NCBI GenBank assembly: GCA_019448385.1
Contig: JAGTXO010000004.1
Coordinates: forward strand, 806,001 to 870,000
Length of the DNA: 64,000 nucleotides
Direction of reading: 5' to 3'
Origin: Diacronema lutheri
Lineage: Eukaryota > Haptophyta > Pavlovophyceae > Pavlovales > Pavlovaceae
Below are positions 35,820 to 63,583 of this stretch, in pieces. Positions within the stretch are counted from its first letter, which is position 1; the number at the start of each line of letters is the position of its first letter. A program made the position numbers and the translations under genes. The notes below the pieces were generated by a model. It did no database searches, was not told the origin of the DNA, and worked only from the letters and a program-made list of their open reading frames with translations.

Positions 35820-37700
35820 TCAACGCCGGCCGCGCTTCGGCCCGCGCGCGCTGCCGCCGCCGGCACTGGCGCTGGCAGCTCCGCGGGCGGGGGTGCGGGC
35901 GCGAGAGCCGCCGCCGCCACCGCCGCCGCGCCCGCCGCCGTCGTCGCCACCGCCGTCGCCGCCGCCGCCTCCCCCGCCGTCATCGTCGTCGTCGCCGCCG
36001 CCGCCTCCGTCGCCGTCGCCGTCGCCGTCGCCCTCGCCGCCGCCGCCGTCGCCGCTGCCATCGTCGTCGTCGTCGTCGTCGCCCTCGTCGTCGCCCTCGT
36101 CGTCGCCGTCGCACTCGTCGTCGCAGTCGTCGCCCTCGCCGTGCACCATGCGCTCCTCACGCTCCCACACCTCGCCGCGCGCCCACCAGGCGAGCACGAG
36201 GGCAAAGCGCTCAGGCGTCGACGTGGTGTCGCGCCCGGCCGCGTGCGCCGCCATGTCGTGCACGTCGTAGAAGATGTTGCGCGCGGCGTTGTAGTCGCGG
36301 TGCACGGGCTTCTTGCCGCCGTTGCACGCCGGGCAGATGACGAGCGCGTGCACCGTGCGCGTGCCGCCCTTTGCCACGGGCAGGCGCGGGTTCTGCGCGA
36401 GCTCCGCGCCGCAGCGCTGCAGCCTGCCGCCCTTGGCGAGCCGCGGCATCGAGCAGTGCATCGACGTGTACGGCTCGGGCACGAAGACGGCCGCGACGCC
36501 GCGCCGCCGCAGCTCGCGCAGCAGCCCCACCTGGAAGGCGGGCGGCGCGCCCTTGGGCTGCGCGCCCTTGTGGTCGCGCAGCCACTTGCCCACGCACACG
36601 AGCAGCCGGTCGCGCGTCACGCCGTCGACACAGTGCGCCGCGATGAGCGCCTCGGCGACGCGCGCCGCGTTGGACCGCCCGCCGCTGTCGCGCCGCCAGC
36701 GCTCCTTCCGGCGCGCCGGCGCGTCGTACACGTGCTCGGCGGCGCGCTCGCGCACCCGCGCGCTCTCGCGGTGGAAGGCGTGGAACTCGCCCTCGCCGAG
36801 CACCTTGGCGCTGTGCGCCTCGCCAAGCCGCGCCTCGTCCGCCTCCACGCTGAACTCCTCGCCGCGCCCGTCCTTGCGCACGCGCCGCCGCGCCGCGTTG
36901 GTCTTGGCCGTCTCGCGCGCAAAGCCCGCGGCGCGCGCGCGCGCGCGCTGCGTGAACTGCCGCCAGACGGCCGCCCGCCCGACGTGCGCAGAGTAGGTGG
37001 TGATGTTGCCCATGTTCGGGTCGGCCGCGACGACGACCGCCGCCTCGACGTCGATCGCCCGCCGCAGCTCGGAGCCGAGCGCGACGGCGATGCGCCCGTC
37101 CGGCCGGCGCCAGCGGTGCAGGACGCCCGAGCCGCCGGCCGGCGCCTGCGCCTTCGGCACGAGGACGGTCCCGACGGCGTGCACGGCGACGCCATCTGTC
37201 ACCACCGACTTGACGGGCTGCCGGCCCGGGAGCGGCACGCGCGGCAGCGGCGCGAGGCCAACCCACGAGCGCCGCGCGTGCCACGGCAGATCGGCCGGCG
37301 GCCGCTCGCGCCCGGCGTAGTCGAAGACGCGGTTGGAGATGTCGAAGCGCGTCGCAAAGACCGCGTACCTGACGCGCACGTCCGACATCGGCGGGGTGTT
37401 GCCGTTTGTGCCTGTCCACTTGATCGGCTCGCCATCGTGGTCGCGCAGGTCCAGCGCCTTGAGCCGCGCGCGCAGCTCCTTGCGCTCGTCATCCGAAAGC
37501 GTCACCCAGATGGCGCTCGCGGCGAAGCGCACGTTGCGCGGCACCTGCGCGCAGCGCGCGGCGCGCGAGCGCGCGGGCGCGTGACCAACCTGGCCGCGGG
37601 GCGGCGCGCACGGCGGCGGCGCGCGCGCGCTTGGGCCCTCGGCGGCGGCAGCGGCAGCCACGCCTCGCGCGCACATTGTGCGTGCGCAGCGGCGCCACAT
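35820..37700 (-). CDS. Fanzor (eukaryotic TnpB-like) RuvC nuclease, C-terminal part
   Basis: RNA-guided nuclease family related to bacterial TnpB and Cas12. In the 626-aa frame the RuvC-I Asp is D227 (VVVAADPNMGN), the RuvC-III Asp is D469 in HRDYNAARNI, and the TS-x-x-C block is PEPYTSMHC. The Glu just before it, E409, matches the relocated catalytic Glu of Fanzors. A zinc ribbon is partly visible: C416 and C430, then CPAC at 456-459; the first knuckle reads CSMP, so one Cys is missing or replaced. The last 110 residues are an Asp/Gly-rich low-complexity tail. The start is unclear: the region overlaps the end of the giant frame at 37489-37700, and CAQVPRN follows a good AG acceptor near 37541, so the N-terminal part is probably spliced from the giant frame. 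Confidence 0.85.
   Translation of the reverse strand: MWRRCARTMCARGVAAAAAAEGPSARAPPPCAPPRGQVGHAPARSRAARCAQVPRNVRFAASAIWVTLSDDERKELRARLKALDLRDHDGEPIKWTGTNGNTPPMSDVRVRYAVFATRFDISNRVFDYAGRERPPADLPWHARRSWVGLAPLPRVPLPGRQPVKSVVTDGVAVHAVGTVLVPKAQAPAGGSGVLHRWRRPDGRIAVALGSELRRAIDVEAAVVVAADPNMGNITTYSAHVGRAAVWRQFTQRARARAAGFARETAKTNAARRRVRKDGRGEEFSVEADEARLGEAHSAKVLGEGEFHAFHRESARVRERAAEHVYDAPARRKERWRRDSGGRSNAARVAEALIAAHCVDGVTRDRLLVCVGKWLRDHKGAQPKGAPPAFQVGLLRELRRRGVAAVFVPEPYTSMHCSMPRLAKGGRLQRCGAELAQNPRLPVAKGGTRTVHALVICPACNGGKKPVHRDYNAARNIFYDVHDMAAHAAGRDTTSTPERFALVLAWWARGEVWEREERMVHGEGDDCDDECDGDDEGDDEGDDDDDDDGSGDGGGGEGDGDGDGDGGGGGDDDDDGGGGGGGDGGGDDGGGRGGGGGGGSRARTPARGAASASAGGGSARGPKRGRR
35900..36125. repeat. 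CCGTCGCC-type repeat coding the acidic tail
   Basis: Imperfect GTCGTC/GCCGCC triplet repeat on the plus strand; on the minus strand it codes the Asp/Gly run at the end of the Fanzor frame. Confidence 0.75.
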
Positions 37701-40700
37701 TGTACCGCGGCGGCCGTCCGGTCAGCTGCGTGTGGATGTGCGCGAGCCGGCAGAGCAGCGCCTGCCCCTCGGCCACGTGCTGCAGGGTGCGGATCTGCAC
37801 GAGGAAGTAGCGCGTCGTGTGCCGGTCGTAGTTCCACCTTTTCGTGGGCGTGCACTTGTAGTCGATCTTGTGGAGGACCATGTCGGGCAGGTGGCGGTCG
37901 AGCGCGGCGGGGCAGCCGACGCGCGCGCCCTCCACGTCGCCGCGCAGCAGCCGCTCGCACAGCTCGCGCACGCGCGCGTTTCGCTGCATCTCGGGCAGCG
38001 CGACGAGCGCCTCGTCGCGCTCGACTGCCGCGCGGACGACGTCGCGGAGCAGCCCGTTCACGACGCGCGATGGATGCATCAGGCACGCGGTGGACACCTG
38101 CGTCGCCTCCGCCTCGAGGATCTCCGTGAGGCCCACCGCGCAGACGGGCTGGACGCCCTCGGCCATCTCGCCGACGGCGCGCGCCGTCGCCGCCTTGGTC
38201 TGCGCGGCGGCTTGCTCGGCGGGCTTGCCTCGGGGCGCTGCACCGTACGTGCTCTCGTCCTTGTGCCAGCCGATGGCCGAGAAGATCGCACGGACGGTTC
38301 CCTTGTCCATCGTGGTCGACGTGTGCACGCTGGTCGACGGGCCGCCCGACGCCGCGCCGACGGCCTGCGCGCTCGCCACCGCAGCCTCGTCGCGCACCAC
38401 CTTGTTGATGACGCGGTACGCCTGTGTCGTGAGCCTGTGCACGGCCGCCGCGATGCGCCGCAGCTCCTTCCGCGCACCGGGCTGCGCCGTCACCGCCTGC
38501 GGCCCCGCGTTGAGCGTCGAGCGCTTGACCACGAAGCCCGGGAGCACGCTGCCGCGCGTGCGCGCCGTCGCGCCGCCGGCGGCGCGCGCGCTCGGCGCAG
38601 CGGGCTCGTCCACGCGCGCGCGCTCGACGCCGCGCGCGCGGGGAACGCTCGGCGCGCGCGCGCCCGCGGCGTCGCGCGCGCTCGCGGCGGCACCCGCCGC
38701 GGCGCGCTTGCCCGCGGCGCCCGACTCGCCGTGCGCGCGAAGCGGCGCCGACGCCAATGCCGACGCCGCGCCCGCGCCGCCGCTGCCGCTGCCCGATACG
38801 CCCGCGCGCCGCTTCTGCTCGTCGCGCGTCTTGCGGAACTGGGCGACGAGGTCGCTGCTCACGTTGGCCTCAGGCTCCCACGTGTCGGCGCTCTCGTCGT
38901 AGCCCCGCCACCTGATCCGGAACTGGAACGTCACCTTCTTGCCCGCCTTGCGGCGCTCGTCGACGACCGCCTCGACCTCGTACGTGCGCGCCTCCTCGTC
39001 GACGCTCGCGCCCGCCGCGCTCGCGCCCGTGTCCGGCCACCCAGCGACCGTGCCGCCCAGCCTCTCGGCGGCCGCGCGCAGCTGCCGCTCGCGCTGGGCG
39101 GCCGCGGCGCCTCGCGCGACCAGCGCGGGCAGCATGCCCGCGCCGCCCGCGAGGCCGTGCGCGCCGACGCTGGCGGTCATCAGCGCGTCGAGGCACGCGA
39201 ACGTTGCGAGCGCACGCGCGCCATCGTCGCCGCCGCGCGGCTGCGAGCGCACGACGGGCGATGGCCGCGGCTCCCCCTCGGCCGCGAGCAGCGGCCAGAT
39301 CGCACTGGCCAGCGCGACGGCATGCGCGCCGACCGCGACGGCCACGTCCGCGTCGAGCGGCGCAAAGTCGTAGCGCACGAGCGCGGCCGGGCGCGAGTCG
39401 TCCGTCGGCCGGTCGGCGACGAGCAGCCCGACCGGGCGCGGCGGCTCGCCGGACGGCGCGGCGACGGGCACGCAGAGGAGCACGACGAGCAGGCGCGGCG
39501 TGCCGCCGAGCAGCGCGCGCGCGGCATCCGCCCCGTCGGCTCCGCCGCGCGCGGCCGCGGCGAGCAGCTCGGCCGCGCGCGTCGGGCCCAGCGCCGTGCG
39601 CGCGTCCTTGCGCGCGCGTGCGCGGGCCGTGTACGCGGCGCAGGCGTCGTCGAGCACCGCCGCGCTGGGCGCGGTGCCAGTCGTCGCCCACGCGCGCAGC
39701 GCGTCGCGCACCCGCGTGACGATCGCCTGGTCGACCGCCGCCTCGCCGGCAGCGTGCGCCGGCGCGCACGCCGGCGGTGCGGCGGCAGGCGCGAGCGCGG
39801 GCGCGCCGTCGGCGCCGTCAACGCCGACGGCGCCGTCGGCGCGCCGCCACGCGAGCTTCGCCTCGATCTGCTGCCGGACGGCGTGGCAGTGCCGGTCGAT
39901 GCCGCGCGCGTCGTCGAGCGCGGCCAGCGCGTCCTCAGCGGCGGGACGGCCGCTCGCGTCCGCGACGGCCTGCAGGCAGAGCAGCGCGGCCGCACGCGCG
40001 TTGCACGCGCTCTGCGGCTCGGGCGCGAGCGCGAGCTCGAGCTCGAGCGGCGACGCGCCTCGCGCCGCGGCGATCGCGTCCATCAGCACGTCCAACCGCT
40101 GCACCAGCGCCCTGTGCGCGTCGCGCGGCGCGCCCGTCGACGGCGCGCGCGAGCGCGTCGCCACGAGCCCGAGCGCGCGCGCCGGCGCGCCCGCCGGCGT
40201 GTGCAGCACGAGCAGCGCCGCGCCCGCCAAGCTCGCGTTGCGCGTGACGAGCGCGAAGATGCGCGTCGCCTCGTGCGCGCCCACCGACGCCCAGATCGCA
40301 GCGCGATCGGCGTCCGTCTGCGCGTCGCACAGGTCGCGCACGTCGTCCGGCGCGAGCAGCGCGCCGCCGCCGGCGGAGCGCGCGACGATCGCCCGCGCCT
40401 CCGCCACGAAGACGGCCTGCGGCAGGTCGGCGTGGCGCGCGTCGACGATGGCGCGCGTCGCGTGCAAGCCGAGCTCCACGCCGCGGTAGAAGGCGCGCGC
40501 GTTGGCCGCGCGCGCGTGCGCCGGCCGTCCGTCCGCGTTGCGCCTCGCGCGCGCCTGCTTGCTCGTGCGCGCGAGGCCGTCGCGTGGCGGTGGCGGCAGC
40601 GTGGCGAGGAAGCGCGCGGCGGGCGGCGGCGCGCGCACGCCGCGCTGCCGCCGTGCGATGGCCGCGAGCCGCCGGCCCGCCGCGCTGCCGCCCGCGCCGA

Positions 40701-43700
40701 CGTGCTGCCGGCGGCCGAGCGCCGCCGGTGGCGGCGGCGGCGGCGGCGCGGCGGCGGGCGGCGGCGCGACGGCGGGCGGCGGCGCGGCGGCGGGCGGCGG
40801 CGCGGCGGTGGGCGGCGGCGCGGCGGCGGGCGGCGGCGCGGCGGCGGGCGGCAGCGGCGGCGGCGCGGCGGCGACGGCAGCACCAGTCGGCTTGTCCGCC
40901 CACGCACCCGAGACTCTGTCCCAGACCTTGCCCCATGGCGCGCGCCCACGCGGCCGCGCGAACTGCCCCGGCTCGAGCGCCTGGCCGCGCTTGGCGGCGG
41001 CGGCGGCGGCAGGGGGCGGGCGGCCGGCGCGCCAGTCGAAGACAGGTGCAACCGTGGCGGCAGGCGCCGAGTGCCGCGCGTCGGTCACAGAGCGCGTGGT
41101 GCGCGCGGCGACCGTGGCACGCCTGGCGGGCGGGCGGTGAGCAGCGCCCGCCGGCGCGCCGGCGGGCGCGGCCGCCTCGAGCCCGGCGGAGGCGCCGCGC
41201 TTGCGCTTGCGCGTGCCGCCGCGCGTGCGCCTGCGCGCGCGCCCGCCGCGCGCCCGTTCGGCCTGCGCGTCGCCAGCCGCGTCGCCGGCCGCGTCGCCGC
41301 GCCGCACGTAGACGACCGCGAACGCCTCCTCGCCGGTCCCGTCGACGCCGCCGCGCGCGCGGCGCAGGACCGACCGCCACTGCAGCCGCCGCGCGCGGCC
41401 GGGCTCGCACGCAAACCAGCGCCCACCGCGCCTGACGACGGCCACAAAGTCGTCGTCGCGCCGCCCGCGCCGGCGCGTGCGCAGCAGCACGCACTGCACG
41501 TCGAGCCAGCCCTCGTGCCAGTCGGCCGTGCTGGGGGCGACGCGAATCGACTGCGGGAGCTCGACGCCAAAGCCGGCGAGCCGCACGATGTGCGCGACGA
41601 TGACGCTCGAAATGGCGGGGGCGCTCGACGGGTCGCCCGCTGCAGCGAGCACCGCCCCGCCCCAGTGCTCACGCGTGACGCAATCCGCGTCCTCGACGTG
41701 CACGTGCGCCACGCTCGCGCCGAGCTGGTGCAGCAACGCGCAGATGTCGGCGTCGACCGTCCTCTCCTCCTCGGCCGCCTCGGCCGTGCCGCGGGCGGCG
41801 GCGTCGCCTGCCGGCTGCCCGAGGTACGCGATCGCCCGCTCGACGGCCGCGCGCTCCGCACGCGCTGCGCTGTCGATCGCCGCATTGCCGACGGGCGCGC
41901 GCAGCGCCGCGATCGCGTCTTGCAACGCCGTCGCGTCGCCCGTCGCCGCCGTCGCCGCCACCGCCGCCGCGCTCGCGGTGCCGTGCGCGACGGCGTGCAG
42001 CGCGGCGGCGCGCGCGGCGGGGATGCGCCCGTCCAGCGCGAGCACGAGCGGCGGCCCGGCCGGCGTCCGCTGCCGCCGGTGCCGCCGGCTCGCAGCCGGG
42101 TGGTCGGCGCGCGCGCGCTCGAGCCGCGCGCGCCGCTCGACGACGCGCGCCCAGAAGGCCTGCACCCTCGGCTGCGCGAATGCAAGCCAGCCGACGCCGC
42201 GCGTCACGACGTGCACGACGATCCGGTCCTCGTGCCTGAGGTACTGCACGTAGAGCGCTTTGCGCACGCCGAGGACGTGCATGCCGAGCTGCAGCTGATC
42301 GCGGTGCGGCTGCGGCGGCCCGTCCTCGTGCGCCTTGGCGTCCGCCTTGGTGAGCGTCTTCACCTCGACGAGGACCTGCTCGTTGTCTTCGGGGAGGATG
42401 GCGAGCCCGTCCGGCGAGAAGGCGAACGGCGCGCTCTTGTCGTGCGGGTCCGCACGCACCATCGGCAGGTTGCACACGACGGTGATGCCGTACGCGGCCG
42501 CCAGCTTGCGCAGCGCGACGGCCTCGCCGAGGATGCCCGCGGTCGTCGCCTTGGTCCGCACCTCGCGCCGCCGCCGGTGCACGTACTCGTCGGTGAGCGT
42601 CTCGTGCGCGACGCCGGCGTTGTCGTTCACGACGTCGCCAACCTTGCTGCCCGTGACCTCCTCCCATCGCTCGTCGTGCCAGCGCGGGCTGCGCTGCGCG
42701 GGCGCGCCCGCGCCGACGGCGTCGAGCACGCGGCGCAGCGCTGTGCCGTCGGGCGCAGCAGGCACGCGCGCGCGGTCCTGGGCCTCGCGAGCGTCGAGGA
42801 CGCAGCCCGTAGTGGAATCTTGGGGTAGGTCGAGCTTGCTCGCCTCGCCGTAGCGGCTCTCCAGCTGGCGCGGTGCGTCGGCAGGGCCGCCGTCCGTGCG
42901 CGCACCCGACGCGCCCGCCAGTGCACGGGGCGCAGCGTCCGAGGCGCCCGCCGCGCCCGCGCCGCCGCCAATCGCGCCAGCGCACGCGCGCGCCGCGACC
43001 TGCGGACGGCCAGCCGCAGGGACCTCGTCCGCTCGGCCGGCCGCTGCGTCGGCCGTCCGCTTGGCCACCTCGCGCACGTCTCCGAGCGCGAGCGTGGCTG
43101 GCGCCGTCGAGCTCCCGTGGCGTTTGTTCCAAAACTCGAGCAGCCCGCCAAGGAAGGGCGTGCCCGTCGGGCGGTCCTCGGGCACCTCCGCCAGGATCGC
43201 GTCGACGCGCAGCGCGGCCGCCACATCGCAAAACGCGCGCGCGGCGCGCGCCATCCGCTCGGCGCGCGCGCCGCCGTCGTCCGCCGCGCGGCGGATGGCG
43301 TGGCTCACGTGCGCGACGCGGAGCGAGACGACGGCGTGCGCCGGCGCGTCGGCGCCCGTGCCGAGCGTGTGCCGCCGGATGGCCAGCTGCCCATCGCCCA
43401 TGCGCGGCGGGAGCGACGCGCACGCCGCGACGGTCGTCTTGCCGGCCGCGCTGTCGCACAGCCAGCTCGCCTCGCCGCCGCCCGCAAACTCAAAGGTCGC
43501 GAAGCCCTCGCGGCCGAAAAGCGCGACGAAGTGGTCGAGCACCGCCTTGTTGATCGCGCGCGCCGCCGGCCGCGTCGATGCGCCGCGGGCAGCGCCACCC
43601 GCCGCGCCGCGCGCATCGCTGCACGTCGCAGGGCAGGTGCAGCCGGACGCGCGCACGCCGTCCGACCGCGTCCGCGGCAGCTCGAGCTCGCGCACCTTGG

Positions 43701-46395
43701 GGCAGAACCAGAGCGGGTTGGACGCCTCGAGGCACAGCACGACGAGCCGCCCGTCCGTGCCGGCCAGCGCGCGCGCGTCGCGCAGCAGCTCGACGGCGAG
43801 CTCGGACGTCGCCGCGTGCACCGCCGGCTCGCCCGTCGCGCGGTCGGGCGGGAAGAGGCCGCCGCCGACGAGCGGGCTGGGGCAGCGGCCGAGCATCACG
43901 AGCAGCGGCGGCGGCGGCGTCTGCGGCGCCTGCTGCCCGACCGCAGCCGCCGTCAGCCCGGCCAGGTCGGAGCTCGTGCGGAGGGCCTTGAGCGCGACGC
44001 GCGAGCCGGTGCCCGCCTGCTCGGAAAACGTGGCGAGCATGGCGCACGTGCTCGCCCTCGCGCCGCACTGCCAGCTGACGCGCGCGAGGAGGCCTTCCAG
44101 CGTGTCGTTTTCGCGCGGCCGCGTGACCGCGTCGAGCGCCGCCGGGCCGAGCTGGAGGCTGCCGGGCGTGACGCACAGCACCGCCTCGTGGTAGGCGCGC
44201 AGCAGCTCCCTCGGCAGCTGCTCGGCGGGCGTCGCCGCCTGCCCGCCCACCCACCGTGCACCGTGGCCGCCGTCGCCCGCGCCCGCGAGCCGGACCGCCG
44301 GCCCGCCCGTGATCGCCGAGGTCGGTGGCGTGCCGAGCGCGTCGACGAGCGCGCGCACGGGCGCGACACGCCTGCGCGCAGCGTCCGCGCCGACGGCGAG
44401 CGCGGCGATCTGAGCGCCCTCCCATGCGCGCTCCCTCGCGTCGTCCCGCGCGGCCGCCGGCGCGGCGCCCGGCCGCGCGCCGTGCGGCACCGCGCACGCC
44501 GCCGCGACGACCTCCGCGCGCGCGCCGGCGGCGTCGGGCGCGTGCAGCTGCGCGAGCGCGCCAAAGAGCGCGGCGGCCGAGCGGTAGCGGCCGTGCGCCG
44601 CGACGAGCGCGTAGAGCACGCGCAGCGCGGCCACGCCCGCCTGGTCGGGCGCGTCGCCAGCGATTTGCTCGACCTCCCACGTGCGCGTGGGCGGCGGGCT
44701 GCCGTCAGCCGGGTCCGGACGCAGCGCCCACGCGCGCTCGACGATCGCGTTGAACACGCCGTGCGCGGCGCCCTCGTCAAACTCGGCGGCGCCCGCCGCG
44801 TGCGCGCACCACCCGTGCACGCGCGACGTGGGCGCGTCCACGGCGCGCTGCACGACGAGCACCGCCGGCCGGTCGACGCAGCCGAGGCTCACCGCCGCGT
44901 GCTTGCCCTCGAGCAGCGCCGCCGCCGCAGCCTCGACCAAGGCGTCATCAGGCGCGTCGCCGACGACGACGGCACAGCCGTCGCCGTACTCGGCCTGCAT
45001 CGCGGCGACGCACGACGCGACAAAGTCGCCGCCCGCGGCCGCCGCGTGTCGCGCCGCCAGCATCCGGCGCGCGATGGCAAGCCAGACGTACTCGGCCGGC
45101 GCGCGCGCGGCGCGCGCGCGAGGCGCGCCGGCCGCGCCGCGTGCGCCCGCGCGTGCGCCTCCAGCGGCCGCAACGGCCGAGGCGGCTGGAGCGGCGGTGA
45201 GCGTGCGCCGCGCGCGCTTCGCCGGCCGCGTGATGGGCGATGCACCCGCCGTCGCACCGCCCGCAGCAGCCGGTGCGGCCGCCACAGCGCCCGCCGCGAC
45301 GCCACTCGTCACGACGCCCGTGGCGGGCGGCGCGGCGGCGGACGTGGCCGCCTCGACGGGCGTCGCGCAACTACCGCCAGCGGTCGCGGACGCGCCCGGC
45401 GACGCGTCGGCGAGGAGGTGGCGCAGCACGCCGCGCGCGAGCGCGACTCGCACGGCGAGCGTCAGCGCGCGCAGGCGGTCGGAAGGCGAGGCGTCGCGCT
45501 CGGCGTCGGCGGACGTGGCGGCAGCAGGCGGGGCGGCGGGCGGCGCGGCGGCGGACCGGGCGGCCGCCGGCGCAACCTCGTCGGCCTTGGCCAGCCAGAC
45601 GAGCCCGGCGACTGCGAGCACGACGCTGTACGCGCCGACATCGTCACCCGCAACGCGCGCCAGCCGGGCGTGGGCGTCGGCCTCGGACACGGCGACGCGG
45701 AAGAGCACGTCGTCGCGGGCAGCTTGCTCGGCAAACTGACGCAGCTGCTTGGCCATCGTCACGCCGGCGACGCACGCCTCGCCCGCCTCTGCCTCGACCT
45801 GCTCGTCCTGGCCGATGGCGGACGCGCCGGCCTCGGCGCCACCGTCGAGTGTCCGGCGGCGCTCGAGGGCGAAGCCACGCACACAGACGCTCTGGAGGCC
45901 GCCGAGCGCGCCCGCCTTTTCGTGCAGCGCGCACGACAGCTCGACCACCGAGTCCACGCGCCTCGCGGCGGCGCCCCCCCGCTCGCCGCGCGTGGCCGCG
46001 CGCACGACGAACACCGTGAATTGCGCGCGCTTCGCCGCGCGCGCCGACGCGCACGCGTGCTTCAGGAGCCGGCAAAGCGCGGGCCTTTGCGCCGCTGCGC
46101 CCCGCGTGCACAGCAGCAGTTGGCCGCGCTCGTCGCCCAGCTCCTGCTCGACGGCGGCCTCGAGCGCGTCGTCCGTCAAATCGCCGTGCTCCGTCGAGGC
46201 GAGCGCGCGCGCAGCCGCGAGCGCCAGCTCGCCTGCGCCCGCGCGCCGCCGGCGGCGCGCACCGGCGGGCGCGTGCGGCGCCGACGCGTGTGACGACGCC
46301 GCCGCGTCCGCGCGCGCACACGCGGCGCGCAACGCCTCACGCGCCGAGGCGGCCGCGCGCGCCCTGGGCGCGAGCTTCAAGAACGTGCGCGCGGC

Positions 46396-46474
<79 letters not shown>

Positions 46475-49400: not shown

Positions 49401-52400
49401 CGCCGTCGACGTCGCGCATCGGCGGGCCGCGAGCGCGCCGCGCAGCCGTGCGGCGCGCACAAGGCGCTCGGCGGCGCGCGCGCCGCTCGGCGCGCGCGGC
49501 GGCGCGCACGCCAGCGACGGCTGCGGCCACGCCGCGCGCCAACACGGCCGCGGCGTGCGCCATCGCACCGAGCACGGCGCGTGGCGCGCCGAGCAAGCGC
49601 AGCAAGCGCGACGCCGTCGCGCGCGCCGGCGCACCGTGTGCAGGGGCCTCGCCAGCGCCAGCACCGACGCCGCCATCGCCGCAGCCGCAGGTGGCGTCGC
49701 CGCCGCCGCAGGCGTCGCGACGGACGCCGCCGCCGCCGAAACAACCGCCGCACACGTCGCCGCCGACGTTGCCACCCCAGCCGCCGTTGCGTGCGCAGGT
49801 GGCTGCGGCGCGTGCGTGCGGGAGGCGTGCCGTGCGGCGCGCATCACACGGGCTGCGCGACGCGAGCGACGCCGCCGGGGTCCCCGCTGCGCCAGGCGCG
49901 CCGTGCGCGCCAGCCTCGCCGGCCTCGCCGGTGCGCGGTCGCGCGCTCGCCTCGACGTGGCCGCCTCCGCCGCCATCGCCGCCGTCGAACCGGGCGGCGG
50001 AGGGCTGCTGCTCGAACCGCTCGTCGGCGTCGGCCGCCACCGCCGCCTCGCGCTCCGCCGCCGCGGCGGCCGCACGGCGCGCGTGGCGGAGCGCGCGGCC
50101 GCCGTCCGCTGCGCGGCGTGGTGGCGCGGGCGCGGCCTTCGGCGCGCGCGGCCTCTCGGCGCGCTCGCGGAGCACGGCGAGCGGCGTGCCCGTGGCGACG
50201 CTCGTGCAGACGCGCCGCAAGGCGGCGCTTACGCACGCGTGGACGACGCGCGCCGTCCGCTTGTCGGCGGCGCGCGCGGCGCGGCGCGCGGCCTTGGCGG
50301 CGGCCTTTTTGGCGCGCCTCTGCTCCGCCTGCTCCGACAGCGCGCGCGCCTGGCGCTCGGCTGCGAGCGCGTCCTCGGGCGAAACGGTCGGCCTCGGCGG
50401 CCGCGCGCGCGCGCTGCGACGCTGCGCGCTGCGGCGGTCGGACGGCGGCTGCCGCGGCGGCGAGGACGGCGAGCGCGAGCTCGGCGTGGGCGACCAATCG
50501 CCGCTGACGGTTGCGAGCGGCGCAAACGGGTTGTCGTCCCCGCGACCCGCGGCGTGCGACAGTGCACGCGGCGTCGGGCGCCGGCCGACCGCTGGCGGGC
50601 CCCACTCGGACGGCGGCTCCGAGGGCGAGCGCGCCGTCGGCGCCGCGCGTTGCGCGGCCGGCGGCGCCTCCCGGTCCAGCGCCGCCTGCTCTCTCGCCGC
50701 GGCCTGCTCGTCACCCTCCGGCACGCCACGCGGCGCGAGCACCGCGGTGGCGCAGCGCGTCGCGTTGAGCAACGCCGCCTCCATCTGCCGCACGCTGGCC
50801 TTGGCGCACGCCACACCCTGTCTCGCCCGGCGCAGCGCCTCGTGCGCGCGGCGCACTTCCGCGTCGGCATCTTCGCGCATGCCAAAGTGCGCCTGTTGCA
50901 GCCGCAGGTCCGCAGGGCGCCCCTGCGCGCGAGGGGCACGGGCGCGGCGGCGCGCAGGTGACGGAGCTGGCGCGCCGTTCTGCGCTGCGCGCACGCCAAT
51001 CGACGGGCGCGCGCGCGGCGGGGCGCGCGCGCGCGCGCGCGCGCGCGCGCTGCCTACCCAGCCGCCGGCCGGCTCGCGCGAGCGCGCCAGCTGCTCCGCC
51101 GCCTCGGCGTCGAGCACGCGCTGCTGCGCCTCCTCCTCGCCCAGTGCAGCGAGGTGCAGCCGGCGGGCTGCCTTGCGGCAGTTGCCCTCCGCCTTGCCCA
51201 CGGCCTTGCGCGCCGCGTCGACGGGGTCGTCGTTGGCTCTGGCGCGCCTGCGCTTGCCCTTGTCGGCGGGCGGCGGCTCGGCGCGCTGCAGCGTGCCGAG
51301 CGCGTCGTCGGCTCCGCGCGCGGCCGCCCGCGGGCGGCGGGCCCCAAAAAGCGCACCGGTCGCCGTGCGCGCCGCGCAAGCAACGACCAGCGCTGACATG
51401 CCGGCGAAGACCGCACCGCCCAGCGCCACGGTTGCCACGATGCGCAGCGTCCCGTGCGCAGGCCGCGCTGCCTCCGCCGCTTTGGCGGCCTCGCGCGCGC
51501 GCGCATCGGCGGCTCTCATCTCGTGCAGCAGCCCGGCCGCGCCGCTCGCGCCGTCGCGGCCGCGCGCGAGCTCGCACAGCACCGCCGCCGCGCGCCGCGT
51601 GGGCTCGCGCGCGAGCAGCTGCGCGCCGCCGTCGGGGCGCAGCTTCTCAACGAACTCGACAAACGTCGCGTCGCGCCAGAGGGACATGCGGAAGGCCCTG
51701 TGCACCGCCCCCTCGTGCTCGCGCATCCGCCGTGCCGCCCGCCTGCCGTCGCGCGCGTGCGCGTGCGCGGCCGCGTCGACTCCCGCGACGCCGCGCTGCG
51801 CGTCGCGCGCGGCCGACGACGGCGCCGCCGCGCTGCCCGCCAAGGGCGCCGCAGCGGCGACGCGCGCGTGCGGAGCGACGGGATCGCCGGCGGCCGGCGG
51901 CTCGGCGCGCTGCGGCGTGCCGTTTGCTCCGCGCGCGGCCGTCCCGGGGGAGATGGCCGCGATGGCGCCGCCAGCCGCGCCGCGCGCCAGCCACGCGCAT
52001 AGGCTGCCGACGAGCTCGCCGAGACCCCCGACGGTCGCCGCGGCGGCGAGTGCGCCGGGCTTGCCGGCCGACAGCGGCTCGCGAGCGTCGTCGTCGCAGC
52101 CGCCGGCACCCGTCTTGGCGAGTGCGTCGCGCTCGCCCTCGACGCCCGCCACGACCGCCGCCCCTCCGTCGTCCGCCGCGCCGGCCGCGCGCGCGGCCGG
52201 GCGCAGAGGAGGCGTGCCGGTGCAGCCGTCGCCGCTCGTCTTCGCCGTTTCCTCCACTTTGGTCACTTCGTCGCCACCTGCGCCATCTCCGACGCCGGGG
52301 CCCTTGGTCACGCTTGCCGCCATGCGCGCCGTGCCCGCCGGCCAGCCCGCCGACTGCTCGAGCGCGGCGGCGAGCGGCGCGACGCGCGTCGACTCGGGCG

Positions 52401-54732
52401 CGCTCTCGTCATCGGGCTCGAGCGCGTTGTGCAGGCGCGCGAGCGCGCGCTCGACGGCCGCGGCGCCACTGCCGGGGGCGCGGCTCGCCGCGCGCACCGC
52501 GCGCCGCCAGGCCGGCGCGAACATGAGCGCCGGCTCGAGCGCCGCGAGCGCGCGCGCCTCGCGCGCGTCGCTCGCGCCGAGGCGCGGCGGCACGCGCGCG
52601 GCTCCGCGCGGCGCGGTGCCTCGGAAGCGTGGGCTCAGCGTGTAGGCGAGGTGCTGCGGCACGCCGCGCGCCTCCGCGCGCGCGCGTCCGTCCTCGACCT
52701 CGCGCCGCGCCTTCGCGATCGCCGGCGTGGCGCGCGCGAGCCAGTCGGGGTCGGCGGGCAGGTGGATCACGACGAGAATCGGCGCCCAGTCCAGCCGCGG
52801 GTTCTTGTGACGGTCGGGCACGACCCACACGAGCAGCACCGTGCCCTCCGCGCCGCACGCCGCCTCGTAGATCCTGGGCTGCGAGCGCCAATCGGGCCTG
52901 ACGCGCAGCGCCCGCGCGTGGTCGATGGCGGCGGCGCGGTCGCCATTGAAGTGAACCGTCGTCACCTCGCCGATGACGGACCGGCCGGACCGCCAGCAGA
53001 ACACCGCGTCCGCCGACCCGCCGGCGATGGCCGCGAGCGATTCGGGCGCGGCGAGCCGCGGCAAGCCCTCGAAGGCGGCAAAGTCCTCGTGCGCATTGTA
53101 CACGCCGCCCCAGCCGTCGTGCGCGTACGCGCGCGCGGCCGCTCGTACCGCGCGCGGCTGGTTCTCCACGCCCGACGTCATGTGCCATGTCGTCCCCGCG
53201 AAGCCGGGCTCGCCCAGCTCGGCCCGCACGACGGTACCGTACCCCGCGCCCTGCGTCGGGGCGGCGAGGTGGTGCATGCCCGCGCCGGTCACGCCCTCCG
53301 TGCGCTGCCGCGTGACGATCGTGCCCGTCGCGTGCGCGAAAAGCGTGTCGACCACGGCGGGCGCGCGCCCGCTGTTCGCCCGTAGCCGCGCCCTGCCCGC
53401 TTTTAGCTGCTCGGGGTCCTTGGCGTCGTACACGCGCGCGTCCGCGTCGCCCGCATCAGGCGCAGTGTAGACGCAGCGGCGTTCGAGCGGCGCCGAGCCA
53501 CCGCCGTCCGCCGCCGCCGGCGAGGTTGGCGCCGCGCCCGCCGCCACCGCGCTCGTCGCCGCCGTGCCCGTCGCCACCGCCGCAGCCGCCGCGCCCGCGG
53601 GGTCGTCGTCCCCGTCCTCCGCGCCCTCCCCGTCGTCAGCGGTGGTGGCGTCGCCATCGTCCCCGTCGCCCTCGCCCCCGCCGAGGCTGCTGAATGGTCG
53701 GGGCCCCCACGCCGAGGCGGCGCGCCGCTGCGGCGCACGCGGCGGTGGCGCTCGCGACGGCGGCCTTGGCGCCGCCGCGCCGCGCGGCCTGGCCGCCGTC
53801 GACAGCGCGCGGCCTGCAGCGCCCGTGAGCGCGTCGAGCGCGGCCGTGCGTGCGATGCGGTCGTCGGGCGCGCGCAGCGCCGCCTCGACGGCCTGCAGCA
53901 GCCCGTCGGGCGCGGATCCGCCGACACTGGCATCGCACGCCTCGGCGAGCCGCGCGGCCTCGGCGAGCCGCGCGGCCTCGCGGGTGAACGGGCCGAAGCG
54001 CCTGGCGCGGTCGCCGAGCAGAGCGCCGATGGCGGCGCGGAGCGTGCGCGCGCGGGTCTCCTCGTACGCGGCCGTCGTGAGGCGCGCGAGGCGCGCGTCC
54101 AAAGCCTTCTTGATGTCGACAAGGACACTCGCGCGGCGGCCGTAGAGCGTCGATGCGCTCGCCACGACCTCGGCCGCGACTGTTGCCGCGGCGAAGCAAC
54201 ACGCGGCCCCACTCTGCGGGGGCGCCTTGAAGGCATCGATGGGCGGCGCTGTTCTGCCGATGCGCTGCGCAAGCTTCTTGATGAGCACGCCGGCCGCCGT
54301 GGCGTACGCCGATTCGCCGTTGCCCAAGGTGCGCGAATCGGCGAGCAGGGCGAGCGCGGCGCCGGGCGGCGCGCCGCGCTGCGCGGGCGGCGCGAGGAGC
54401 AGGTACGCCGCCGTCCAGTGCACGAGGCCGCTGGACGCGCGGAGGCAGAGCGGTAGCACGACCACGAGCACCTGCCCAAACCGGTCCGCATCCGCGCATG
54501 CTTTGCGCAGGTTGCGCAGCGCCACCTTGAGCGCATGCTGCGAGCACCCCGTGTCGCCCACCCTAACCCTGCTCGTGCCGAAATCCGCGTAACGCAGCAG
54601 GGCGATGAGGCAAGTGGATGGGACCACGTGGGGGTGGGTATCTCCCGGCGACAGAATGGTGCTGAGGGCCAGCGAGAAACTGTCCGAGCCGCCCCGCCCG
54701 CCGGGCAAAGCGTCCTTCACGGAGTCCTCCAT
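37489..54732 (-). CDS. Giant multidomain frame (5,747 codons): Ulp1-like proteases, YqaJ nuclease, chromodomain
   Basis: Uninterrupted 17.2-kb frame. Recognisable parts in order: Ulp1-like cysteine-protease domain (about 1-200); globular region of unknown type (about 430-800); one hydrophobic helix near residue 1190 (IVATVALGGAVFAGMSALVV); coiled coil; long Ala/Arg/Pro-rich spacers; second Ulp1-like domain (about 2470-2680); poly-Ala (about 2704-2780); several weaker protease-like segments; YqaJ-type nuclease (about 4000-4200); chromodomain (about 5247-5300); and at the C-terminus a helical region (KIDYKCTPTKRWNYDRHTTR) likely to be the N-terminal part of the Fanzor. Openness alone proves little: the opposite strand also has frames up to 5.1 kb. 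The domains are the evidence. It may really be several proteins, and unseen in-frame introns are possible. Function as a whole unknown. Confidence 0.6.
38845..38995 (-). other. Chromodomain in the giant frame
   Basis: YEVEAVVDERRKAGKKVTFQ then FRIRWRGYDESADTWEPEAN is a full chromodomain signature, including the aromatic residues (Y, W, W) that would cage a methylated lysine. Chromodomains in mobile elements are thought to steer integration to marked chromatin. Confidence 0.88.
40730..40880. repeat. GGCGGCGGCGCGGC tandem repeat
   Basis: About nine copies of a GGCGGCGGCGCGGCGG(C/T)G-type 18-nt unit, coding a Pro/Ala repeat in the giant frame. Confidence 0.75.
42120..42725 (-). other. YqaJ-type PD-(D/E)xK nuclease domain in the giant frame
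   Basis: YqaJ/lambda-exonuclease-like fold: QRSPRWHDERWEEVTGSKVG opens it, GILGEAVAL supplies the first acidic residue, FSPDGLAI the Asp, and VLVEVKTL the E-x-K pair (Glu about residue 4123). DQLQLGMHVLGVRKALYVQY is the typical Gln helix and strand. All catalytic positions are present. Such nucleases process DNA ends for recombination in viruses, phages and large eukaryotic elements. Confidence 0.85.
46389..46620. repeat. GGC triplet repeat (poly-Ala)
   Basis: About 30 consecutive GGC triplets on the plus strand from 46391 to about 46472, then interrupted copies to 46620. On the minus strand it codes poly-Ala and Pro runs in the giant frame. Confidence 0.9.
46700..47345 (-). other. Second Ulp1-like protease domain in the giant frame
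   Basis: GHFTALRLV places a His at residue 2552, VLVDTLAS an Asp about 20 residues later, and QRGATCGLAIV a Gln-Cys-Gly at 2616/2621. This order, His-Asp-Gln-Cys, and the CG after the Gln are the Ulp1/C48 pattern. All catalytic residues look present. Confidence 0.6.
47540..47830. repeat. Imperfect tandem repeat of about 54-60 bp
   Basis: Four to five diverged units built on GCGGGGAAAACACCGTCGG and GCAGGCGCGAAGGCGGATGC. It codes repeated APAADGVF peptides in the giant frame. Confidence 0.75.
54130..54732 (-). other. N-terminal Ulp1-like protease domain of the giant frame
   Basis: His105 in VHWTAAYLLL, Asp near residue 130 in LADSRTL, Gln173 and Cys179 in QSGAACC. The HW pair and the Gln to Cys spacing of six are those of SUMO/Nedd8 proteases (C48). 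About 200 residues, close to a minimal catalytic domain. Confidence 0.6.
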
Positions 54733-56636: not shown

Positions 56637-56668
<32 letters not shown>

Positions 56669-57654: not shown

Positions 57655-57701
<47 letters not shown>

Positions 57702-59125
57702 CGGCCGCCGGAGACGAGGACGCACTCACCGCTGTTGGCAATGCGCGCGTCACGGAGACAACTTGGCGGGCCTCGCACGCAGCTGGGCCGATCGCCGCCG
57801 TAGAGATGTCTGCAGCCGTCTCCGCGATGCCGATCGTCGCATCTGTTGGCACCGCTGCCATCTGCCGCACCCGCGGCCAGGCTGCCGGCAAGGTCGGCGC
57901 GTCGGGCTCCGAGCTCGGCCACGCAGGCGATGCGGCCGACGGCGGTGACGCTGAGCCCAGCGCCGGGTCCAACGGCTCCACGTCGAGCCGGCTGTGAACG
58001 AGCATGCTCGCACCACTTGCCCACGCCAGCGCGTCGGACTCAGGCACGTTGTAGATCTGCGCGGGCAACGCGCGTGCGTGCGGCAGGCGCGCGCGCGAGC
58101 TTTCAGGCCACGCGCGCGTGCCGCGCGGGAGGACGGGGCGGTCGCGGCTGCGCTCGACCGCCGGTCGCGGCACCGAGCGACCGTGCGCGCCGCCGCACGT
58201 TGTAGTCGTCGCACGGAAACCAAGCCTCGTTGCGGAGCACGATGGCGACAAGGTGCCCGCTCATCGGCCCCTCGCCCACGTGCACCACGCCGGCGACGGG
58301 GAGGTGGTCGCGCCCGCCGAGCAGCAGCCGCGGCGCGCACACGAGCGCGCGGTTGTTCTTGCACTGCGAGCCATTGCCGCGCGTCGTGCGCGGCGCCTCG
58401 ACAGCAATGCTGGCTGGCGTGAGCACGCCCGAGTGGCCCGCGTTCGTGTGGCGATCCCGCGGCGGCCCAGCGGCGCCCCCCAGAGCGTGTGCAAGCGCGC
58501 GCGCCGCATCGCCGCCGACGCTGACGAGTACGGCGATGCCCTCGCCGGCCTCTGAAGGCACGGCGATCTGCTCGAGCACTGGCCCGACGCGTGTGTCGGC
58601 TTCAAAGGCCGCAGCGAGCCCGGGCACTCGGCCGAGCAGCAACCGGAAGAACTCAGCGGCATCCTGCGGCGTCCTTCGCGCGCCACGGCCCGAGATGACG
58701 TCGATGACGGACACAAGACACAGCCGTGTCGGCGCCCTGGTGTCCTCGATCAGCGTGCCAAAGTCCCGAAAACGCGCCCTCTCGACGCTGTTGGCACGGC
58801 GCGAAGCGGAGCGAAGCATCGCACGGAGCATGTTCAGGGCGAAGAGCGATTGCATAAGGACGGTCGTGTAGCACGCGCTGCCCTCGTTTTTCGCGCCTGC
58901 GCCGCGCCGCGCAGCGCCGGGTGTGCGGGGTGCGCACGCACGGTTTGCGGCGGGATGGAGGGAGGCTGGCTGGGCGCGCGCCGAGCCCGGCAAGCCGTGC
59001 AGGCGCTCACCACGCGGCACGCCGGGCACTCTCACCGGCCACATCGGGCCGTCAAACGCGTCTTCCACAGGCTGCCGACCGACGACGTAAAACTTGCTCA
59101 AGGCGCCGCGCCGTGCACGCGCCAT
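57343..59125 (-). CDS. Ubiquitin-specific-protease-like (C19) cysteine protease
   Basis: Deubiquitinase-like protein. Cys box: NEGSACYTTVLMQSLFAL, with the catalytic Cys codon at 58871-58873. His box: GEGPMSGHLVAIVLRNEAWF then PCDDYN, with the His codon at 58253-58255. A GT-AG intron at 58057-58198 (142 nt) joins DDYN to IYNVPESDALAWASGASMLV, the expected last strand of the USP fold. A further intron probably precedes the Cys box (AG near 58902). Start at 59125 (MARARRGALSKFYVVGRQ) is tentative. It is about half the usual size of a USP catalytic domain, like the minimal USPs of parasites and elements. The reading below about 57980 is low-complexity, includes a 28-nt G/C run, and may be non-coding. 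Confidence 0.65.
57669..57696 (+). repeat. (GT)n followed by G28 tract
   Basis: A short GT repeat runs directly into 28 consecutive G. Confidence 0.95.
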
Positions 59126-60590
59126 GCGCGCGCTGTTGCGGGCTGCGCAGCAGGGACGACGGGGGAATTGGCGAGCGAGGGTTGGGCGCAGATCAGCGTG
59201 GTGGCGCGGCAAGACGAGCGCGCGCCGGGCGCCTGGCGCGGAGGCGCCCCGCGCGAGGACGCGAGCCGCTTCTCGCACCGGACGGGCGCCCACGCGCAAG
59301 CCGGCTTTCGAGGGCTGGTGGATGGTGGCAGATGCCGAAACGGACACATGGAATGATGCGTCGGCGGCGCGAGCGCGGGACGATCTTGCCCGGGCAATTT
59401 TGCGCACGCTGCCAGCGCGCGTATGCGTGCGCATGCAGCGGGCGGCGCGCACGTTGCGCGTGACGGGGCGCCGAGCGGCACACCGGCGGGGACGCGCTCG
59501 CCGCTGCCGTGGCATCGTACGCTGCCTGCGTGCTGGCCCGCACGCACGTTGCCGGCGCGAGGGGACGGCGAGTGCGCCTCGGCCGAACAGGCGCGAACGT
59601 TACGCCCGAGCGCGTGGCCGGGCCCCGCCGACTGCACGCAGCGCCGGCCCAGGCGCGCATCCGCCCGACGCGGATTTGGACGACGCATCGACCGGCACGC
59701 CGAGCGTCTGCGCCCGCCTCGCGGCCGGTCGCGCCGGCCCCTCTTCGGCCCGAGGCCGCACGTCCGCCGCGCGCCGCTTTGGCGCGCGGCGCGGCGCTCC
59801 CGGAACGCGCATGGCACACGCGCGGTGCGCGGGCACGCCCGCAACGCGCCATTCCAGCGCGAGCAGTTCGGCAAGCTTGCAGCGCGCGAGCAGCCGGGCA
59901 TGTGCCGCGGAAACACAGTTCGCTGTGTGCGCCGGCCGCGACGACACGGCGTAGCGGCGCGAGGCTGGCCGCCGGGGCCACGGGCGTACTGCCGTGGCGC
60001 GACGCCATGGTATGAGCATTAAATTCATCGGGGGGTGGGGTGGGGGGGGGGGGGGGGGCGCGTTGTGCGCACTTGGCGCGCGAGTAGTGCGAGTGGCGGG
60101 CGAGCCTCGTCGCCCACGGAGCCCGCCCCCGGCTCGGCGGCGCGCCGCCTGCTCGCCGGGTCGCGCACCGCCGTCGCCGCCGCTGCGCACTTGCCCAGCT
60201 TGCCGGCAGGCGGCAGGCGGCGGCGACGGCGGCGGCGGCGGCTGCGGCTGCGGCGCGAGCGCGACGCCGGGCGGCGGCAGCGCCGACGGCACGCGCGCAG
60301 CGGCGACCCACGCGGCGGCGGGCAGCGCGCCAGCGTGAGGCCCCTGCGCGCCGGCCGCATTGGCGCCGCCCTGCGCGCCCTAGAAGGGCGCGCAGGTACG
60401 CGGGCCGGTCGCGCGGCGCGCGGTGCTGGCGAGCACCCGACGGCTGCGCGTCGGCGCGAGCGGCGCGGCGGGCGTCGCGCCGGCGGGTGCTGGCCAGCAC
60501 CGCGCGCCGGCGGCGCGCCCGCCGCCAGCGCGCCGCCCGCCGCCGGCGCCGCGCGCGCCGTCCGCGCCCGCCGCCACCGCGCGCCGCCGC
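59126..60590. other. Gap between USP-like gene and helicase
   Basis: 1.46 kb without a recognised gene. It contains a G17 run at 60042-60058, an 11-bp perfect stem with a 3-nt loop at 60371-60395, and Ala/Arg-coding GC-rich sequence from 60180 on that may be the disordered tail of the helicase. Confidence 0.4.
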
Positions 60591-63027
60591 CGCGCATTCG
60601 CGCGCGGCGGCGACGGCGGCCGCGGCGAGCGCCGCCGCCGCCGCCTCGCCACCGCTGACCGCGCGGAGCACCTCTTTGAAGACGACGCTGCGCGTCACGA
60701 GGTCCGGGCCGAGCGCAAAGCGGACGCGCGACGTGTGCCCGACGCGCGAAGCGGCCACGTGGAGCTGGCCGTGCGTGAAGCACGGCTCGGCGAGCCACAC
60801 GCCCGCGCACCCGAGCGCTTGCCCCTGCGCCTCGTTACGCCGGCCGCACCGGGGAACTGGCGGCGCATCCGCACAAGCGCGAACGTGCCGTCGTCGGGCG
60901 AGTGGTGGTCGACACGCGCGACGAGCACGGTGCTGTCGCGCCCGGCGGCCGCGCCGGGGCGTGCGCACTCGAGCAGCCGGCCGCCGGCGCGCACGCCGCG
61001 CACGATCAGCCGCGTGCCGCCGCACAGCCCCTCGCCGGGCGAGAGGTTGCGCGGCAGCATCACCACCATCCCGGGCTTCAGGTCGAGGACGCGGTGCGGC
61101 ATCTGCGCGTGCTCGAGCGAGTCGAGGAATTCGACCGACGCCCGCGCAATCTGCTTGCCCGCCCCGTCGTCGCGCCAGCTCGTCCGCCGACGCGCACCTC
61201 GCCGCCGCGCCCGGGAAGCGGCCGATCGCCAGCCAGTTGATCCGCGCCACGTCCGTCTGCTTGGCGCAGAGCACCGCGCGGTCGCACAGCGAGCCGTCGT
61301 CGGTCCAACACGTCGCGCCGTGGACAAAGTCGTCACGAGCTCCGTCGGGTAGGCCGAGCCCACGCGGATGGGGACGCCGCCGACGGCCTCGGGCAGCTGC
61401 ACGGGATCGAGCGGGAATGCGCCGGGCATGGCCCCGGCCGCCGGCACCGCCGCGGGAACGGCGCCGTCGCCGGGGCTGCGCAGCAGCTCCGCCCACTCGC
61501 CCGCGCCGAGCGCGTCGCCCGTGTCGCGCGCCGCGCTCGAGGCGCGAACGTTCTCGACCAAGGCGTGCTGCCGATCGTGCTGCCACGGCGCCGAGTACTT
61601 GAGGCAGGAGCGCACGATCTGCGCGCGCGAGCCGCGCCGCACCACCGGCAAGCACTGGCGAAAGTCGCCGGCGAGCAGCAGCGTCTCGCCGCCGAAGCGC
61701 TCGTCGACGCCCGTCACGTCGCGCAAACACCGATCAGGCGAGTCGAGGTGGCACCGCGTCTGCATCGGCGCCTCGTCCCACACGACCAGCCGCCGCGGCG
61801 GCCAGGGAGCGCCCGCGCTCGGAGCGCGGCACGCCATTGAACGGCTTGCCCGTCGGAGTCGGCACCGCCGGGCACCTTGAAGGTCAAGTGGAAGGTGCGG
61901 CCGTCGGGCAGCAGCGTGGCGGCGACGCCCGAGGACGCGCCCACGACGACCGCGTGCCCATCCGCGCGCACGGCGGCGATAATGGCGCGCTCGACGAACG
62001 TCTTGCCCGTTCCGCCCGGCGCGTCGCAAAGATGCAGCCGGTTGCCCACGCCGCGCAGCGCCGATTTGACGACCGCGCCGTGGAGCGCGCACTGCTGGCC
62101 GCCCTCGGCCATCGCCGCGCGCGCCGCCGCCGCGCTCGCAGCCCGCTCGGCGCGATGGTAGCCCTGCGCGCGCGCGAGCTCGCGCCCGCCCGGCCCGGCC
62201 GGCGCGCGCGCCGTGCGCAGACCGGCCACCGCCGCGAGCGCCGCCGCGCGCTCGCGCTCGTCGGGCACGTACAGCCCCGTGGAGTCGAACGTGTCGGCCC
62301 AGGCGGGCACGCCGTACGAGGCGAAGGCGTCCGAGCCGGGCTGCGGCCGCTGCTCGGCGCGCTTCAGGAGCATGACCCCGCACACGTTCCACTTGGTGCC
62401 AAACATCGAGCCCGTGAGCCCCGTGTAGACGCGGTCGAGCTGCGTGGCGATGGCGCAGACGTCCTCGTGCCGGATCTCGTCGACCGGTTCGCGCCGCGCG
62501 TCGACGAGCGGCACGACGCGCTCGGAGCCCGCCCACGTGAACGTGCGCGTCGACATGTTCAGCCGCGTGTGCGCGAGCGTGTCGTCCTCGTACTTGGGCT
62601 TGACGGCGGGCGAGAGCTTGCCGCGCACCTCCTCCTTCGAGAGGCCGCGCGTGTTGAGCAGCTCCTTCTGGCGCGCGTGCACCGTCTCGACGCGCTGATC
62701 GTCGATGGCGCGCAGGGCGCCAAAGTAGGCGTCCATCTGCGCGAGCGGCGCGCCTTCAATCGGCAGCTCCTTGTCGGTCACGCCGGCCGTGTACGCCGCC
62801 TTGTCGACGTCCGTCGGCCCGTACATGGTGCCAAAGTTGCCGTCGCCCGTGAGCTCGGGCCAGTCGACGACGCAGGGCGGCGAGACGAAGGCGAGCGCGC
62901 GGCGCGACGGCCCGTAGCTCAGCTTGTCGACCGTGCGCGCCTGCTCGCTCGGCTTGACCGGCCGCGTGCTCACGATCTCGCAGTTGACGAGCGCCGCGTC
63001 GAAGGCGCGCAGGTCGATGGCGGCCAT
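60590..63027 (-). CDS. PIF1-family helicase with unusual N-terminal domain
   Basis: 5'-3' DNA helicase. Walker A DAPGGTGKTFVERAI (about 61990-62030), DEAP Walker B (LVVWDEAP), motif III LLLAGDFRQCLPVV, the C-terminal GMVVMLPRNLSPGEGLCGGT, and the closing FTHGQLHVAASRVG block are all visible and in the right order. The motifs lie in more than one frame, so introns or decay are present; this was not resolved. The first 230 residues from MAAIDLRAF are not helicase: a beta-rich segment ending DRVYTGLTGSMFGTKWNV recalls single-stranded-DNA-binding proteins of large DNA viruses and related elements (weak). No HUH replication-initiator domain, as in Helitrons, was found. Confidence 0.8.
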
Positions 63028-63502: not shown

Positions 63503-63583
63503 GGCGCGCACGACGTCGCCCAGCCAGAGCAGCCCGGGGCGGGGCGAGTCCGGCTGCGCGGAGGTCCGGCTCGAGCGGGCGGG

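Follow-up and report, generated by a model that had tools for sequence, protein, structure and literature searches.

On contig JAGTXO010000004.1 of the haptophyte Diacronema lutheri (assembly GCA_019448385.1), positions 806,001 to 870,000 of the forward strand make up the 64,000-nucleotide stretch analyzed here (the window), in which modules for a Fanzor nuclease, a RecE/YqaJ-type nuclease, a chromodomain, a ubiquitin protease and a PIF1-family helicase lie on the minus strand. Do these modules travel together and, if so, what moves them? A sequence-only reading had taken the block 35820–63027 for a possible new class of large mobile element. Comparison of copies leaves hardly any doubt that a single mobile element is present, although the limits first drawn were too narrow: on the minus strand it spans 35415–64000 of the window and continues to 66467 (G000:C75:872467), giving the window copy a length of 31,053 bp. 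The explanation that we favor is a giant Helitron-related DNA element, so placed because its helicase is of the Helitron type, which spreads without target duplication by means of an unrecognized nicking or joining enzyme, a statement that, taken whole, we believe about as strongly as we doubt.

One element in many copies

The left end of the element was located with 20 stretches fetched from Fanzor-domain matches in the D. lutheri assembly (43,492,796 bases, 103 contigs). Two of these adjoin the window, and each of the remaining 18 can be aligned with it, 7 lying at contig ends and 11 internally. The left alignment stops exactly at 35415 in 9 of the 11 internal copies, each with a different flank; it stops at 35418 in L023 and at 35427 in L025, 3 and 12 bases short, and in L018 one further letter matches beyond 35415. 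On the right, the end is crossed by 2 of 12 fetched stretches, whose alignments both break off at 66467; the remaining 10 match up to, or nearly up to, the last base of the stretch itself. When the two termini were used as probes, the left 146 bp matched fully, to the terminal base, in the best 40 of 261 candidates, and the right 260 bp extended to the terminal base in the best 40 of 273, each set of 40 being selected by score and not a random sample of copies. Probes for the helicase and for the start of the giant reading frame described below matched at 100% in the best 40 of 237 and the best 40 of 179 candidates, respectively. Beside these identical ends, 28 left and 24 right flanks are mutually different.

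The Fanzor-domain search of the assembly gave 148 matches among 150 scored of 306 candidates, and at least 116 of them, on 51 contigs, were assigned to the element by score (~31 bits). At least 148 helicase matches were likewise assigned (150 scored of 414 candidates); two PIF1 matches that score higher, on C86 and C96, are possibly cellular genes. Both counts may be inflated, one physical copy possibly being split over two contig ends. For 72 of the 96 helicase matches on contigs C1–C69, a listed Fanzor domain lies 0–30 kb downstream on the same strand, at a spacing of 24.9–25.4 kb in 49, 20.4–21.2 kb in 8, 17.2 kb in 10 (a second subfamily) and elsewhere in 5. The 24 without a partner are explained, at least partly, by contig ends and by the listing of 150 of the 306 Fanzor candidates. 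Matches to the DNA probes lie no more than 300 bp from the place that a full-length copy would give them relative to a listed Fanzor domain in 23 of 40 cases for the helicase, 28 of 40 for the giant frame and 12 of 40 for the right end. Shared ends in unrelated flanks, with modules colinear at fixed spacing, support the earlier proposal of a single element, which single copies or unrelated distributions of its genes were to refute; the genome holds multiple copies with co-occurring modules, so the proposal stands.

The element is young and has recently multiplied in D. lutheri. Over ~4 kb, 15 copies diverge by 0.03–2.2% overall, with 0.03–0.5% within and ~2% between two subfamilies. Two copies fall between the subfamilies, L010 (0.6–0.7% and 1.5–1.7%) and L028 (1.0–1.3% and 1.7–1.9%), an intermediacy that suggests recombination or gene conversion among copies. 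The published genome of strain NIVA-4/92 (43.503 Mb, 103 contigs, 73.25% GC) was sequenced with a read N50 of 23 kb, shorter than the element; long terminal repeat elements (LTRs) and long interspersed nuclear elements (LINEs) are its main annotated repeats, and the main text of that paper has no word beginning with “transpos” (PMC8379373). Some contigs start at or near an element end, and the idea that these are telomeres was rejected: since contigs begin or end at both element ends and internal copies are common, such starts are assembly breaks, which arise because the repeat is longer than the reads.

The genes of the element

The Fanzor catalytic half is an open reading frame of 626 amino acids at 35820–37700 on the minus strand, with a TNB/zinc-finger domain at 36273–36512 (Pfam Cas12f1-like_TNB, E 2e-6, 28.3 bits against a cut-off of 26.3). 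The defining Fanzor signature, D-X(125–275)-[TS][TS]XX-C4 zinc finger-X(5–50)-RD (PMC3627910), is satisfied and intact (D227...TSMHC...C...C..C...RD469), with RuvC residues D227, E409 and D469, zinc-finger cysteines 416, 430, 456 and 459, T412-S413 and R468-D469 (numbered in P0001). Domain match and full signature bear out the Fanzor of the sequence-only reading. The protein search returned P0002 (99%, one contig of 2435) and P0003 (45% identity by BLAST, 50% in alignment), in which the RuvC and zinc-finger residues are retained; P0003 and P0006, a relative of the helicase, are the two relatives found outside the 99–100% matches in three protein searches, each scoring the ~8,000 candidates that shared most words. 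The stop codon lies ~400 bp from the 3' end of the element, and the catalytic half is in a different frame from the end of the giant frame, which probably holds the N-terminal part of the Fanzor. A GC run at 37619–37629 has two extra bases in the window copy and L027 that are lacking in 13 of the 14 other copies covering it. The genome also contains a second, distinct Fanzor family (L002 on G000:C1, L004 on G000:C4, C9:378667, C69:650235, C85 and C89), with at least 14 matches at 43.9–44.5 bits, open frames of up to 1779 amino acids and, in L002 and L004, the motif ...ESYTSQDCSKC...FDRDFNAARN.

The giant reading frame itself encodes 5747 amino acids at 37489–54732 on the minus strand, and its high third-position GC (0.82–0.95 in twelve 1.5-kb bins from 37501 on) indicates that it is coding and not a chance open frame. 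It contains both the YqaJ-type nuclease and the chromodomain noted earlier. The RecE/YqaJ-like exonuclease domain (42274–42681, minus strand; motif SPDG...VEVK...QLQLGM) matches the RecE-like phrog_434 at 1.5e-17, Pfam YqaJ just under the cut-off (2.3e-4, 21.9 bits against 22) and the lambda-exonuclease family at 8.9e-8, under that family's cut-off; judged by sequence, its RecE-like catalytic motifs are intact. The chromodomain lies at 38830–38982 on the same strand (E 3e-12). A EukProt entry named Pavlova lutheri (P0004) is a 100% match to part of the frame. Most of the frame has no family match in the Pfam scan, and the structure predicted for a 431-residue piece of it was unreliable (mean predicted local distance difference test score, pLDDT, 35.1).

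The helicase, of superfamily 1 (SF1), PIF1 family and Helitron type, occupies 59196–63102 on the minus strand in three frames (61717–63102, 60698–62536 and 59196–61730), with an ATG at 63027. Pfam matches to PIF1 (E 1.5e-24) and Pif1_2B (5.4e-13) agree with the PIF1 module already proposed and its subtype is Helitron-like. The best PDB match of frame 60698–62536 is the Helitron transposase Helraiser (E 2.5e-25, 92.4 bits), compared with E 4e-6 and 28.9 bits for human PIF1, and the other helicase frame tried matched Helraiser at 8.8e-7; by these scores the helicase is closer to Helitron than to human PIF1. The genome has one match to Helitron_like_N, in broken frames on C63, outside the window copy, and 128 bp of this Rep locus match the helicase linker at 62161–62288 at 92%. 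The match may link the element further to Helitrons, but capture of a fragment would leave the same picture. The shifts between helicase frames are possibly introns or old frameshifts. One relative, P0006 (53–55%), was found for the N-terminal ~250 amino acids, and a model of this domain made with P0006 was unreliable (pLDDT 39.3). A reading of the domain as a single-stranded DNA-binding domain of the DUF5871 kind was unsupported when checked. Beside the C63 Helitron relic (L098, G000:C63:37000-41000) lies a long tandem array of ankyrin-like repeats, as judged by eye (GGHLEVLQWAREHGCEWDS).

A USP-type ubiquitin hydrolase lies at 58106–59515 on the minus strand, with a UCH match at 58631–58897 on its Cys-box side (E 3.6e-8, above cut-off) and a His-box side weakly like USP12 (E 0.04). 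Where Ulp1/USP proteases had been claimed, the USP is confirmed and the Ulp1 is not: the pieces tried gave no Pfam, NCBIfam or PDB match to Ulp1, and the Ulp1-like Cys-protease stretches seen by eye have no backing from these databases. There are no premature stops in the real frames, and 1 and 2 in giant-frame control frames. Upstream of the helicase gene is a foldback repeat (63584–63933) whose partner copy, at 64135–64466, is outside the window; the paired repeats (GGGTGTAGGGTGTAGG...) are shortened, rearranged or inverted in the C38 copy (L030). The ordinary transporter gene described to the left of the block is a nucleotide-sugar transporter (E 9.1e-56).

Termini and insertion sites

The termini of the element read TATATAGGG...CATCTATAC, and its 3' end in gene orientation (35415–35560, minus strand) closes with ...CCATCTATAC-3'. 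A subterminal palindrome, GGGGC-ACGATCGC-GCCCC on the plus strand, lies at 35443–35460, 29–46 nt from the 3' end, and another, of 18 bp, lies 47–64 nt from the 5' end. As DNA, the 35415–35560 region folds no better than shuffles (z −0.67), and the fold drawn for it differs from the palindrome.

Target-site duplication was sought in 16 copies read at both ends. The flank ends match over 0 nt in 12 copies and 1 nt in 4, as against 0 nt in 179 and 1 nt in 50 of 256 mismatched control pairs, and none of the 16 paired copies has a duplication. Four copies were left unpaired: C32, where no left end turned up; C29 at 102686, for which the fetched stretches yielded no right end; C13, where the fetched stretch fell outside the expected position; and C10, cut off by the end of its contig. 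With a read N50 of 23 kb, the assembler may have mispaired flanks in copies other than C11. For the C11 copy, the left flank codes for part of a fatty-acid hydroxylase (E 5.5e-8, profile positions 33–114 of 132) ending in ...HHKYN, and on the right the frame resumes two letters later with FGMFTVLWD, by eye the rest of the hydroxylase domain; the short right piece alone has no Pfam match. This copy looks like a genuine insertion that split a fatty-acid-hydroxylase gene, with its flanks correctly paired.

Of 52 flanks, 8 contain the motif CTAACG in their first 40 bp, where ~0.0015 would be expected per 40 bp. The motif seems to be the edge of an independent small repeat and was not adopted as a target motif. 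This repeat, with CTAACG...CGTTAG-like ends, was seen near element ends in the right flank of the window copy (66468 onward) and in L051, L058, L067, L083 and L089; it is possibly a TA-type miniature inverted-repeat transposable element that inserts into the TATATA end.

What moves the element

The helicase type and the lack of target duplication (16 of 16) are held in common with canonical Helitrons, and the palindromes near both ends with Helitron2/Helentron. Fanzor1 is known in Helitron2 elements of the green alga Chlamydomonas (CRe elements; PMC3627910), so a Fanzor in an algal element is a likeness to these as well. The element departs from Helitron and Helitron2 in its length of 31 kb, its giant multi-domain frame (RecE-like nuclease, chromodomain) and its USP.

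A number of findings weigh against the Helitron-related explanation. In the frames scanned there is no Pfam match to HUH/Rep, DDE, tyrosine or serine recombinases, so that the HUH Rep that canonical Helitrons join to an SF1 helicase is not recognized; the HUH-plus-Tyr motif was not found in the giant frame, and the one Tyr hit, in another frame at 60101, is outside all genes called. The element has neither the 5'-TC/CTRR-3' ends nor the A/T insertion site of canonical Helitrons, its insertion dinucleotide is not fixed (17 of 24 right ends are followed by G), and its first 80 and last 120 nt share no terminal inverted repeat as long as 7 nt, whereas Helitron2/Helentron has asymmetric ones of 8–15 nt. 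Its two ends are alike in first-look counts (261 and 273), in contrast to the one-ended excess of Chlamydomonas Fanzor Helitrons. The last 260 nt at the 3' end fold at z −1.37, with 19 of 200 shuffles equally good, and no end-to-end junction of the element was found in the assembly by exact pattern. Among 8 copies compared over 60500–63900, no compensating indel joins the helicase frames, and the ratio of nonsynonymous to synonymous substitution between subfamilies is 0.6–1.6, no better than in control frames. Finally, the C36 copy has a 5-nt match, CGACG, if both junctions are moved by 1 nt, the longest match with shifts of up to 3 nt.

Starships are giant eukaryotic DNA elements of similar size class and multi-gene content, as are Polintons/Mavericks and Teratorn. 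The frames scanned here have no match to the polymerase B, integrase, capsid, piggyBac or tyrosine recombinase of this company (Teratorn, PMC6431247), Pfam giving none to the Starship/Crypton tyrosine recombinase or to the protein-primed DNA polymerase B of Polintons/Mavericks, and no long inverted repeats of the Polinton/Maverick kind join the element ends. DNA transposons such as Ginger and MuDR that have a Ulp1, OTU or USP-type domain (PMC2836005) carry a ubiquitin-type protease, as here, but no DDE transposase (frames scanned), inverted repeats or target duplication of the Ginger/MuDR/KDZ kind was recognized in the element. IS605/IS607 with TnpB (PMC3627910) resemble it in having a RuvC nuclease gene near one end (here ~400 bp) and no target duplication, and differ in that the element has a eukaryotic Fanzor, a size of 31 kb and no recognized TnpA-like transposase. 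No description of the element was found among the matches listed in a literature search of titles and abstract starts, to which most subscription journals are external, and haptophyte, Diacronema and Pavlova are absent from the main text of two Fanzor papers (PMC10711439, PMC10432273). These modules stand together as one element, and the “possible new class” stays a possibility, part of the machinery, the helicase, being of a known kind and the Ulp1 unproven.

The lack of a recognized recombinase in the frames scanned would also fit an element that lacks its own mobilizing enzyme and has its ends recognized by that of another. The internally shortened classes are multi-copy (10 matches at 17.2 kb, 8 at 20.4–21.2 kb), so that ends may suffice; yet the sole Helitron Rep match in the genome, the broken frames on C63, has no element ends in the 7.3 kb around it, other transposases not having been searched for in the genome, and we consider such carriage in trans unlikely. 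A strongly diverged DDE or tyrosine recombinase acting by cut and paste could be hidden in the giant frame, most of whose 5747 residues have no family match and whose 431-residue model reached a pLDDT of 35. A DDE enzyme would, however, normally be expected to leave target duplications and inverted repeats, neither of which is seen, and a tyrosine recombinase needs shared crossover letters, while the flanks are not fixed; this reading we rate somewhat below carriage in trans. Equally improbable in our view is the capture of extrachromosomal copies by end joining at double-strand breaks, possibly made by the Fanzor. It would account for the lack of duplication, the unfixed target letters, the two extra letters between element and gene in C11 and the loss of 3 and 12 terminal bases in L023 and L025, but not readily for the exact left end in 9 of 11 other internal copies, the arrival of the selected best 40 per side at the terminal base, or the mild preference for G after the right end (17 of 24).

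Nucleases of the YqaJ type are known from algal DNA viruses, small relatives of giant viruses have haptophyte hosts (PMC10962738), and Fanzor is found in large DNA viruses (PMC3627910). That the element is an endogenous virus, whether polinton-like or one of these small giant-virus relatives, is nevertheless very improbable: the frames scanned have no match to a capsid, polymerase, packaging ATPase or integrase, scans of viral contigs gave no relative (the helicase scan partly with out-of-frame stretches), and the many copies, with shortened classes among them, point to a transposon. A read N50 of 23 kb, below the element length (PMC8379373), and the several contigs that start or end at or near element ends might suggest segmental duplication or an assembly artefact; the 28 left and 24 right flanks, all different, and the C11 copy inside a gene whose frame resumes on the other side refute this for practical purposes, although copy counts may still be inflated.

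For the Helitron-related element that we favor, the following mechanism can be envisaged. A putative enzyme for nicking or joining, be it a highly diverged HUH domain or another nuclease of the giant frame, would release a copy. Starting at the ends, which the subterminal palindromes would mark, the Helitron-type helicase would drive replication or strand displacement, and the released copy would be inserted without duplication. The Fanzor, in a TnpB-like position next to the 3' end, might carry a guide read from the flank and cut empty sites, favoring retention and copying of the element; a guide function is described for TnpB (in part, PMC10432273). The RecE-type exonuclease may resect ends for recombination, and the USP and chromodomain may act on host chromatin or repair. 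We are inclined to doubt, while holding it worth stating, that a new superfamily of giant DNA transposons in eukaryotes, inserting without target duplication, has its first member in this element; in such a superfamily a giant polyprotein (Fanzor plus RecE-type nucleases) with a Helitron-type helicase would replace the classical transposase, and the Fanzor would be part of movement and not cargo.

If all 148 helicase matches were full length, the element would account for up to ~1/10 of the 43.5-Mb genome, though shortened classes exist. The lack of a recognizable transposase in a young, abundant 31-kb element is a testable puzzle, and, its host being a cultured haptophyte, the element is a candidate system for asking what a Fanzor does for the element that carries it.

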